Below, piece after piece: positions 28,645 to 31,281 of a DNA stretch of 35,461 nt (positions are counted from its first letter, which is position 1; every line of letters starts with the position of its first letter). Source of the stretch: Candidatus Kaiserbacteria bacterium CG10_big_fil_rev_8_21_14_0_10_56_12 (GTDB lineage Bacteria; Patescibacteriota; Minisyncoccia; Phycocordibacterales; Phycocordibacteraceae); contig PFBL01000005.1 in NCBI GenBank assembly GCA_002773355.1, positions 1 through 35,461 on the forward strand, given 5' to 3'. The translations under genes were made by a program, and so were the position numbers. The notes under the pieces were generated by a model. It saw nothing but the letters and a program-made list of their open reading frames with translations, did no database searches and was not told the origin of the DNA.

Positions 28645-29166
28645 TCACGCGGGCCAGAGGCACCACACGTTGCCGACCGAGACGAGCGACCTGAGCTCGA
28701 CTGCGCCACTCACCTCGCTGAGCGAGACGAGATCGAGTTGCGATATCCTCGTCGATACGAATCCGGCCCTCCGGAAGAGCTCCTCCACATGCGTCTCGCT
28801 TGACCACAGGTTAGCGCGGATATCGCGTCTACTCAGTCGCGAAACTGCCTCCACCATCCCCCTCATCGAGGGCTCGCGCTCGAGTAGCCCGTTCATCGCC
28901 TCCACCGACAGGGGGTCTGGGGTGAGGAACACATCGCCCGGCCGCATCGCAGCGCAGATGTTGCAGAGGGCGTTTAGCTGTTCTCGCTTCGTGAAGTAAG
29001 GCAACGTCCCGAGGCTCACGAAGGCCACGCGGTTATCCCCGAGGTACTGTCTCCTGACCGAACTTAGCTCGTGGAGCGCCAGCAGGTCGACGGGACAGAA
29101 GTGCAGATTCGGCCGCTCGTGTTCCTCGAAGATCTCGAGAACGATCATCCTGAGACAGGCGGTCAT
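28645..29166 (-). pseudogene. SAM-methyltransferase-like protein, probably N-terminally truncated
   Basis: From the ATG at 29166 the gene encodes 173 aa. Segments resemble the middle and C-terminal part of a class I methyltransferase. PNLHFCPVDLLAL is like the motif II/III strand, RVAFVSLGTLPYF like motif IV, and LCNICAAMRPGDVFLTPDP like motif V. THVEELFRRAGFVSTR is like the terminal helix before the last strands. The glycine-rich motif I expected about 50 residues earlier is missing. Upstream, the same frame runs directly into tRNA-Tyr. No promoter box or good Shine-Dalgarno is visible. This suggests a gene cut short at the tRNA 3' end, possibly cotranscribed with it. An unusual intact small protein remains possible. 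Confidence 0.5.
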
Positions 29167-29225
29167 TTCGCTTTCTCTCGCACAGGCAAAAACGAATTTC
29201 CCGAAAATGGGTTTAATCTCTACTA

Positions 29226-29310
29226 TGGTGCGCCGGGTTGGATTCGAACCAACGTAGGCAATGCCAGCAGATTTACAGTCTGCCCTCGTTGACCGCTTGA
29301 GTACCGACGC
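29226..29310 (-). tRNA. tRNA-Tyr (anticodon GUA)
   Basis: A class II tRNA of 85 nt. The acceptor stem GCGTCGG pairs with CCGGCGC. The anticodon stem GCAGA/TCTGC encloses CTGTAAA, so the anticodon is GTA. A long variable arm has a GGC/GCC stem, and the T-arm is GTTGG-TTCGAAT-CCAAC. Discriminator A is followed by an encoded CCA (29228-29226), unlike tRNA-Glu here. The 5' half is overlapped by the 3' end of the endonuclease-like gene. tyrS lies just upstream. Confidence 0.95.
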
Positions 29311-29926
29311 ATTCTTGGCAATACTCATCTATCCATTTGAGTATCTGCCTTAGTAACTTTGTATCACAATACACTATATGCACAAGCCCGTTATGCATGC
29401 GTGGACCTCGTGGAGTCGGAATTGCAGCTTTCTTCACATAGGGCTTAATAAACTGCTCTTCTGGGATAGAGAGCAACTGACTCCAGTAATGAGTAAGAGC
29501 ATTAACATCCTGTCCTTCGTAGCAATAGACATGTCCACGAATTCTGTTTTCATCAACGCGACAAATCTCAGAAAGGAAGCGCTTAAAAAGAATTGCCATG
29601 CGTGGATCAGAGTTAGCGAAATCAATTGTGTTCTTACCCGCTTTATATCCCTCAGCCCAATATAACATGACTGCTGCAAACTTAAGACGCTCCTGGCTCC
29701 TGCTAAGCTGTTTCTTAAGATCGTATGAAAGCGGTTTGGCCTCAAAACGAATATGATTCGCTTCCTGTTTCGTCCGACGCGGCACGTTAAGCTTGCGCAA
29801 CGCATAAAATACTGCATCAAGCCGCACCTTGAAATGATCTGCGATTTGCTGTGCACTTAGCCCGCTGCGATATAGGCGTGCCGCTTCTTGTTGCTTCTGC
29901 AGGGAAAGCGCAGCAATAGTGGGCAT
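29273..29926 (-). CDS. Homing-endonuclease-like protein with N-terminal HTH, overlapping tRNA-Tyr
   Basis: This 217-aa protein has an N-terminal resolvase-type helix-turn-helix (AARLYRSGLSAQQIADHFKV, residues about 15-34). The C-terminal part has the layout of small LAGLIDADG-like proteins known from CPR genomes: AVMLYWAEGYKAG, FANSDPRMAILFKRFLSEI, then HYWSQLLSIPEEQF and VHIVYCDTKLLRQI. A DNA-binding or nuclease role is likely but not proven; only one LAGLIDADG-like unit is visible. Its own promoter gives a leaderless start. The last 38 nt overlap tRNA-Tyr, and its TAA stop lies in the tRNA anticodon loop. AT content is visibly higher than in neighbours, hinting at transfer. Confidence 0.7.
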   Translation of the reverse strand: MPTIAALSLQKQQEAARLYRSGLSAQQIADHFKVRLDAVFYALRKLNVPRRTKQEANHIRFEAKPLSYDLKKQLSRSQERLKFAAVMLYWAEGYKAGKNTIDFANSDPRMAILFKRFLSEICRVDENRIRGHVYCYEGQDVNALTHYWSQLLSIPEEQFIKPYVKKAAIPTPRGPRMHNGLVHIVYCDTKLLRQILKWIDEYCQECVGTQAVNEGRL

Positions 29927-29932
29927 CCGTTG

Positions 29933-29961
29933 ATTATCTCGTCACCCCGACTACTGGTCAA
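29933..29961 (-). promoter_or_regulatory. Promoter of the endonuclease-like gene
   Basis: Minus strand TTGACC (29961-29956), 17 bp spacer, GATAAT (29938-29933), six bases before the ATG. One of the best full promoters in the window. Confidence 0.65.
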
Positions 29962-29983
29962 ATCAACTTATACACAGAACTGT

Positions 29984-31281
29984 TTACTTTAGCACAAGCA
30001 CGAGGACGCCCTGCTTGCCTTTGCGCACGAGCGTGCAGCCTTCGTGAAAGTCCCCGAGGTAGACTTCTTTCTCTGGGTTCCCTATCTTCATGTCACCGAG
30101 CATCACTCCCTTCCCTTCGATAGCTCTACGTGCGTCACTCTTCGAGGTGGCGATGCCACCTCGTACCATAATCTCTGCCAACGACGCTCCTCCTTCAACT
30201 TCGTGCTTGGCAAGCGTTACCGATGGCGCCTCTCCGAGCGCGGCTGCTCGCGCCTCTCGTGAAGCTTCGTGAAATGGCGTCGCGCCAAAGAGTGCGTCGG
30301 CCGCCGCCGCGGCCTGTGCCGTGGCCGCTGGGCCGTGCACTATCTCGGTTACCAGTCTCGCGAGCGTTTCTTGCGCCTGTCGCTCACCCGGGTTTCGCTT
30401 GTGTAGCTCCATCAGGGCATCTATTTCGTGTGCCGAGAGGGATTTGTAGATGTTGAGGTAATCTCTAACTCTAGTGTCTGGCAAATTAATCCAAAATGAT
30501 AGAACTGAAACGGCGACGTCTTCGTCCCATCTAGCCACACCGCATTGCCCTCGCTCTTGCCAAACTTTTTTCCATTTGCATCGGTCACAAGTGGAATCGT
30601 GAATGCATAAACCTGTTTGCCCTCCTTCTTGCGTATCAAATCCACACCAGAAAAAATGTTCGTCCATTGGTCCGAAGCACCTACCTGAAGGTCCGCGCCG
30701 TACTTCTTGTTAAGGATGAGATAGTCGTAACCCTGAAGTAGTGCATAAGTAAACTCTGTGTAAGAGATGCTCTCATCGGCTGTATCAAGTCGACGTCGAA
30801 TAACATCTCGCTTTACAAGATCATTGACTGTGAAGTGCTTACCGACGTCCCGCAGAAATGGAATCAGTTTCAATTTATCGAGCCAATCAGCGTTATCGAC
30901 GAGCGTAAAGCGAGTTCGACCAAGGATACTCTTGAGCTGTTTATTGATAGCACGAGTGTTCTTAGCGACTGTTTTTTCATCAAGAAGCACCCGTTCCCCT
31001 TTTTCTTTTGGATCGCCGATTGCGCCCGTCCCTCCCCCAACTAGGAATATGAGGTTGTGCCCGGTCTCCCCGAGACGTCTCATGAGGAGAATCCACGCCA
31101 AATGCCCAATATGCATCGAGTCGGCTGTCGGGTCGACACCGATATACGCAGTGCGCTTAGTACCAAGTATTATGTCGAGCTCTGCCGACGAATGGTCTAC
31201 AAGCCCGCGCGCCTTCAGATTCTCAACAAGCAAGCCAGGATCGCTTGTCTCTGCGTCGCCAAACATTCCACTAAATATCAT
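29984..31281 (-). pseudogene. tyrS: Tyrosyl-tRNA synthetase with a single frameshift
   Basis: Two overlapping frames together make a full TyrRS of about 432 aa. Frame one (31281 to about 30495) has the HIGH-type MHIGHLAWILLMRRLG, LLQGYDYLILN, GASDQWTNI and the KFGKS motif in GKKFGKSEGN. It reaches KTSPFQFYHF. Frame two continues as WINLPDTRVRDYLNIYKSLS and ends in an S4 RNA-binding domain (SDARRAIEGKGVMLGDMKI). The join is at a TTTT run (AAAA 30493-30496 on the plus strand), where one more T restores the protein. tyrS is essential, so a sequencing error is likelier than decay; a natural -1 slip is possible. A leaderless promoter precedes it. Confidence 0.85.

Follow-up and report, generated by a model that had tools for sequence, protein, structure and literature searches.

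An Apparently Undescribed Family of Homing-Endonuclease-like Genes Docked on tRNA Genes in Patescibacteria

Introduction

SegB of phages T4/T6 is reported to be a free-standing GIY-YIG homing endonuclease encoded in a tRNA cluster (PMC13096335, PMC2988022), and the cleavage motif reported for it is RAWTSGAAC (PMC13096335). The gene family analyzed here resembles SegB in being an intron-less endonuclease-like gene adjoining tRNA genes; SegB cuts inside tRNA genes. Unlike SegB, which has a GIY-YIG domain and belongs to phages, the family is assigned by its predicted fold to the LAGLIDADG type and resides in bacterial chromosomes. In addition, isoacceptor-specific clades and an overlap with the tRNA, both found in the family, are not reported for SegB in the text consulted. 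By analogy, SegB may be considered the nearest functional counterpart of the family, with a different fold.

I-ShaI and the LAGLIDADG enzymes of CPR rRNA introns are single-motif proteins from the same phylum, as are members of the family; biochemical activity has been shown for I-ShaI, and related proteins occur at the same insertion position (PMC11270868). In contrast to the family, these enzymes are intron-encoded in rRNA genes and belong to Pfam LAGLIDADG_1-3, and a word search of the paper finds no mention of tRNA (PMC11270868). They are the nearest same-fold relatives in the phylum. WhiA combines LAGLIDADG and helix-turn-helix (HTH) parts, as the family does, and matches it in fold (Z 6.2); however, the HTH is C-terminal in WhiA and N-terminal in the family, which also keeps the presumed catalytic glutamate and is tied to tRNA genes. 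I-DmoI and the TliVMA/PhoVMA intein endonucleases, which are intron- or intein-encoded two-motif proteins, share the LAGLIDADG fold and the LYxAEGxK motif with the family, but no HTH is present in the matches.

The locus described below is located in Candidatus Kaiserbacteria bacterium CG10_big_fil_rev_8_21_14_0_10_56_12 (assembly GCA_002773355.1); the window is the whole analyzed stretch of 35,461 nt of contig PFBL01000005.1. Its gene of interest belongs to an apparently undescribed family that is spread across the phylum Patescibacteria, each branch being docked on one kind of tRNA. A description of tRNA-docked LAGLIDADG genes in CPR bacteria was not found in the literature searched, from which subscription papers were mostly absent, and an earlier description is possible.

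Organization of the tRNA-Tyr Locus

In the window, the tRNA-Tyr (GTA) gene occupies positions 29226–29310 of the reverse strand (ARAGORN; Rfam RF00005, 54.2 bits). A homing-endonuclease-like gene encoding a 217-aa protein with predicted HTH and LAGLIDADG parts, identified from ORF, alignment, fold and motif evidence, is located on the same strand at 29273–29926. The two share 38 nt (29273–29310, reverse strand), in which tRNA nucleotides 1–38 coincide with the ORF end, namely its last 12 codons, bar one base, plus the TAA stop. The stop thus corresponds to tRNA nucleotides 36–38 in the anticodon loop (G35-U36-A37-A38). The preliminary description had reported this 38-nt overlap and the TAA in the anticodon loop, and the coordinates together with the ARAGORN and Rfam predictions agree with it. 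The genome (632 kb, 26 contigs) contains one copy of the 217-aa gene and one tRNA-Tyr match.

The upstream neighbor is a tyrosyl-tRNA synthetase (TyrRS) gene (29984–31281, reverse strand), which is read in two frames: a 286-aa ORF at 30421–31281 and an ORF at 29984–30667, with the split near 30485–30500. The TyrRS of relatives is intact (at least 421 aa), and the split in the window may be either an assembly error or a real frameshift. The next ORF downstream (28645–29328, reverse strand) begins by reading through tRNA-Tyr and probably has its true start after it; it shows a weak match to a SAM-dependent methyltransferase family.

Fold and Conserved Residues of the Encoded Protein

Analysis of the 217-aa protein against Pfam and NCBIfam revealed a weak HTH only. 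Pfam LAGLIDADG models gave no match for the window protein, and weak matches to LAGLIDADG_3 were obtained for 3 of 54 relatives (best E 0.029). A GIY-YIG domain is absent among the Pfam/NCBIfam families listed for the protein and its relatives, and the WhiA model is absent among the Pfam matches listed. The AlphaFold2 model (pLDDT 92.6) consists of an HTH and an alpha/beta domain. The N-terminal HTH covers residues about 5–55 (29762–29914, reverse strand), as indicated by the weak Pfam match, AlphaFold2 and VIA-align. The domain that follows, at residues about 66–208 (29303–29731, reverse strand), was compared using VIA-align; the nearest structures were the TliVMA/PhoVMA intein LAGLIDADG domains (Z 8.2, 6.8 and 6.7) and WhiA (Z 6.2), values of a level that, taken alone, can reflect a common arrangement. 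Further neighbors of this domain had a Z of 5.0 or lower, and HTH proteins were also matched. Foldseek with the predicted structure returned no match at E ≤ 1e-3, and its top matches (YfiB/OmpA-like, low TM) were discarded as spurious.

The profile of the domain, when compared with the PDB, gave I-DmoI as the best match, a weak one (E 0.035), in which LYVAEGDK is aligned with LYWAEGYK. Residues E92, G93, W148 and G180 are invariant in the alignment of 82 relatives. E92 (codon at 29651–29653, reverse strand), the presumed catalytic acid, falls on the glutamate of the AEG triplet in I-DmoI's second LAGLIDADG motif, a catalytic residue of that enzyme; this is in keeping with the catalytic acid that closes the motif helix of LAGLIDADG homing endonucleases. 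The LAGLIDADG fold is therefore likely, as judged from the model and the motif, and the 217-aa protein may be an active endonuclease. The term "endonuclease-like" in the preliminary description, a guess from the sequence, gains backing from this fold and motif evidence, predicted as it is. As a separate observation, residues about 108–160 weakly resemble part of alanyl-tRNA synthetase in both sequence and fold; this similarity was judged uninformative as a functional clue and is probably due to chance.

Distribution of the Family and Its Linkage to tRNA Genes

Homologues were detected in 61 of 105 genomes of the same taxonomic family (protein search) and, with a profile search, in 100 of 287 genomes chosen from across the phylum; the named relatives come from Parcubacteria, Kaiser-, Nomura-, Moran- and Campbellbacteria. 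The preliminary description had proposed asking whether homologues also abut tRNAs. Linkage was counted for 172 near-full-length members (at least 120 bits), the loci of which were scanned with ARAGORN, and a member was considered linked if a same-strand tRNA 5′ end lay within −120 to +110 nt of the stop. This was the case for 158 of the 172 (median +4), whereas only 11 of 280 other ORFs of at least 150 aa abut a tRNA 5′ end in the same loci, a sample that is biased towards tRNAs. In nine further members, the gene points away from a tRNA whose 5′ end it adjoins.

Inspection by eye placed the remaining five beside a tRNA or at a contig edge. In L015, the contig edge cuts the locus upstream, and in L112 the contig ends inside an apparent 5′ half of tRNA-Gln. 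In L081, a tRNA 5′ half with an intron comes after the gene, and L170 stands beside an apparent intron-split initiator tRNA-Met. L117 is the sole member at the 3′ side of a tRNA: it faces, in convergent orientation, the 3′ end of an opposite-strand tRNA-Ile(tat), its protein belongs to the Ile(tat) clade, and the profile match has one internal TAA. The group linked to tRNA-Val(tac) is inverted, with gene and tRNA placed 5′ end to 5′ end (L012, L013, L014, L016, L054 and L068).

A phylogenetic tree of the 172 proteins contained 30 changes of the neighboring-tRNA label for 25 anticodons, whereas 200 shuffles of the labels gave 124 on average and never fewer than 116. All 22 Tyr-linked proteins formed one clade; Ile(tat), Trp, Lys(ctt) and Val(gac) each made up essentially one clade, and Gly(gcc) one large and one small clade. 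The tree came from a quick search and has many open forks, and the sorting by isoacceptor is independent of them. The protein lineage thus tracks the tRNA isoacceptor, each clade standing in front of one isoacceptor gene.

The Stop Codon within the tRNA

In the Tyr-linked clade, 14 of 22 members, including relatives that are about 40% identical, end at −32 to −39 with respect to the tRNA 5′ end, mostly exactly at −38. Since the overlap recurs at the same place in this clade, and since 158 of the 172 family members are linked to a tRNA, the overlap of the ORF with tRNA-Tyr is more than a coincidence. Across the family, 63 of 158 stops lie within the tRNA and 95 before it. The in-tRNA stops recur at −10 (28 cases, tRNA nucleotides 8–10), −38 (12 cases, all but one Tyr-linked) and −15 (9 cases), the pattern expected where reading frames run up against a conserved RNA and terminate at its first stop.

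In the AlphaFold2 model, the last ordered helix (residues 189–207), and with it the folded domain (to about residues 205–207), extends up to the tRNA boundary, codon 206 being the one in which the tRNA begins. The tRNA-encoded tail has a pLDDT of about 54. Among 11 close relatives, the domain has a clear coding pattern, with identities of 0.65/0.77/0.38 at codon positions 1/2/3, and the corresponding values in the tail are flat (0.70/0.73/0.74), which indicates that the tail is conserved as tRNA and not as protein. This conservation of the tail as tRNA alone would suit a chance or annotation artefact, in which the ORF of an ordinary gene extends into a tRNA by accident; however, the linkage counts (158/172 versus 11/280), the isoacceptor concordance and the coding constraint in the domain leave that explanation hardly credible.

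The tRNA-derived stop is incidental, a side effect of the tight packing of the gene against the tRNA. The preliminary description had viewed the gene as a homing-type element using the tRNA both as its target and as its stop: the view of a homing-type element tied to a tRNA is supported, and a functional role of the tRNA as the stop is not, as 95 of the 158 members terminate earlier. It had also set against its reading homologues with no tRNA association and a conserved C-terminus ending before the tRNA; such a C-terminus was found, and such homologues were not.

Empty Sites and Possible Turnover of the Locus

The order TyrRS, gene, tRNA-Tyr holds in each of the 11 occupied genomes examined in the genus. 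In the gene-free genomes G031, G071, G042 and G090, TyrRS is followed by a spacer of 28–30 nt with TATACT or TATAGT and then by tRNA-Tyr. Relatives with tRNA-Tyr and no gene upstream, which the preliminary description had suggested looking for, therefore exist, and these four are clean empty sites. The insert is a single gene of about 640–670 nt, which stands alone in the intergenic region between TyrRS and an intron-free tRNA-Tyr.

Such single-gene inserts at tRNA genes, which are classic attachment sites, may recall a tRNA-targeted integrative element (att-site recombination) of which this gene is the sole remnant. However, no upstream direct repeat of the tRNA 5′ half was detected (122 loci, mean longest match 5.7 versus 5.6 in shuffled sequences; none in the window), no integrase is present, and the insert comprises just one gene, so this origin is very improbable. 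A phage origin was likewise set aside: no close relative was found in phage records or viral contigs, a result that concerns close relatives, while distant ones may exist.

In the TyrRS tree, occupied and empty genomes are interleaved with modest support (occupied G043 with empty G042, occupied G034 with empty G090). The identities of the gene and of TyrRS are uncorrelated (r −0.22, 55 pairs), and genomes with TyrRS 81–86% identical carry genes 51–64% identical. The conflict between the gene tree and the TyrRS tree is suggestive and falls short of significance (p-AU 0.134). In addition, broken copies with in-frame stops were found in several genomes, which fits the gain-decay-loss cycle of homing genes.

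Over the aligned part, gene-free G042 and occupied G030 have the same tRNA-Tyr sequence. Diagnostic tRNA changes that protect occupied loci are ruled out for Tyr by this identity, and any protected site must consequently span the tRNA 5′ boundary. The flank upstream of tRNA-Tyr is poorly conserved between species, which counts against a simple homing scheme.

Introns in Adjacent tRNAs

Long, group-I-like introns were predicted in 20 of 226 gene-adjacent tRNAs and in none of 101 other tRNAs in the loci examined (p 0.0007). Gene-adjacent tRNAs with introns of about 150–300 nt include those at L028, L061, L092, L096, L100, L109, L135, L146, L150, L154, L161 and L166. Matches to Rfam group I introns (RF00028) lie beside L100 and L109, one above and one below the gathering score; the ARAGORN intron calls are permissive, and only these two have a group I match. 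The intron cases are concentrated in a few clades.

The excess of introns, their clustering in clades and the two RF00028 matches would suit a partner of group I introns, which either cuts the insertion site in the anticodon loop or acts as a maturase, the intron-free cases being relics or precursors (collaborative homing). Against this stand the roughly 90% of members located at intron-free tRNAs, all 22 Tyr cases among them, as well as the permissive calling and the single group I match that reaches the gathering score; we regard such a partnership as quite improbable for the family.

Upstream Regions and Candidate Regulatory Motifs

Upstream of the gene in the window, a −35-like TTGACC (29956–29961, reverse strand) is separated by a 17-bp spacer from a −10-like GATAAT (29933–29938, reverse strand), which ends 6 nt before the ATG. 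The upstream regions of the family show a −10 box peak exactly 6 nt before the ATG and no Shine-Dalgarno excess, which implies leaderless messages. Gene-free tRNA-Tyr genes mostly have a −10 box about 9–10 nt upstream (a match of 5/6 in 39 of 46), and no comparable −10 peak was found upstream of occupied tRNAs. To judge from these motifs, the occupied tRNA-Tyr appears to have no clear promoter of its own. Since the gene sits between the promoter-like sequence and the tRNA, a joint gene-tRNA transcript would be the simplest reading. Loss of the mRNA 3′ end through RNase P cleavage is a plausible consequence of such a transcript; the preliminary description had proposed that tRNA processing would destroy this end.

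A DnaA-box-like motif, TGTGTATAA (reverse complement TTATACACA), lies at 29968–29976 (reverse strand) and is recurrent upstream of family genes. The DnaA-box-like sequence TATCCACA/TTATNCACA occurs within 120 nt upstream of about 20 homologues, mostly 43–78 nt before start codons; 20 of the 35 occurrences of TATCCACA in 588 kb of loci lie upstream of family genes, where its density is 16-fold higher. At L179, a 14-nt stretch from the start of the neighboring tRNA-Met (GGCTACGTAGCTCA) recurs upstream of the gene, the sole duplication of that length observed. Perfect inverted repeats upstream are in modest excess (87 versus 62 at 6 bp), and an operator of this kind was dropped from consideration for that reason.

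In the 60 nt before the start codon, GAACC is found at 3.0 versus 0.9 per kb (3.3-fold) and GGTTC at 2.2 versus 1.0 per kb (about 2.3-fold); both resemble half of a T-arm. The reverse complement of the SegB motif RAWTSGAAC can be read as a tRNA T-loop, and the recurrence of the similar GAACC before family genes is only a lead. It invites a comparison with I-TevI, for which PMC2988022 describes autorepression through a promoter-proximal operator similar to the homing site, whereas the family offers motif enrichment alone.

The enrichment of GAACC/GGTTC also bears on a host-serving role, in which the protein would be a WhiA-like (HTH + LAGLIDADG) DNA-binding non-nuclease that is co-transcribed with one tRNA and controls its supply, perhaps via operators that resemble the T-arm and lie in its own promoter. 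In favor of this, the WhiA fold is one of the closest matches, and each clade keeps to one isoacceptor. On the other hand, the presence of the gene is patchy and interleaved with empty sites, broken copies exist, gene divergence outpaces that of TyrRS, and the putative catalytic glutamate, which WhiA is not known to retain, is invariant in 82 sequences. Taken together, such a regulator seems unlikely.

Discussion

The family is best read as a set of free-standing homing endonuclease genes, each specific for one isoacceptor and comparable to SegB of phages, and we consider this reading probable. In its favor are the tRNA linkage and isoacceptor specificity, the predicted fold with its invariant glutamate, the patchy presence with empty sites and broken copies, the promoter geometry, the coding constraint in the domain, and the restriction of long tRNA introns to gene-adjacent tRNAs in the loci covered. 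The protein would be a DNA endonuclease, probably a homodimer, that recognizes and cuts its cognate tRNA locus in gene-free DNA. Repair from an occupied copy would then install the gene between the promoter of the tRNA and the tRNA 5′ end, and the occupied locus would escape cutting, as the insert parts the 5′ end of the tRNA from the sequence that used to lie upstream. A single transcript would carry both gene and tRNA. In releasing the tRNA, RNase P would sever the message where the protein domain ends or shortly beyond, and the stop within the tRNA would simply be the earliest in-frame stop available to a domain placed directly against a tRNA. An essential single-copy tRNA would rely on the promoter of the element, so that losing the element imprecisely would come at a cost.

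The long, mostly vertical-looking isoacceptor clades speak against homing in that they could also fit a protein useful to the host. In a more speculative version, which we hold to be rather unlikely, the family would consist of isoacceptor-addressed proteins that regulate, process or survey one tRNA each, at the level of its gene or of the RNA, and that are expressed from the tRNA leader and self-limited by RNase P, which removes the 3′ end of the message; the approximately 25 anticodon-specific versions would form a tRNA-by-tRNA control layer in Patescibacteria.

One third of the sampled Patescibacteria genomes carry this family, which standard profiles leave unnamed and which is essentially always docked on a tRNA. 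Should its members be homing endonucleases, nature would have provided about 25 related enzymes, every one with its own tRNA locus as address, and this series would be of use in the study of specificity switching among LAGLIDADG proteins. Should they be regulators, they would constitute a new layer of tRNA control. On either reading, it seems that the expression of essential tRNAs in very small genomes passes through an inserted gene.
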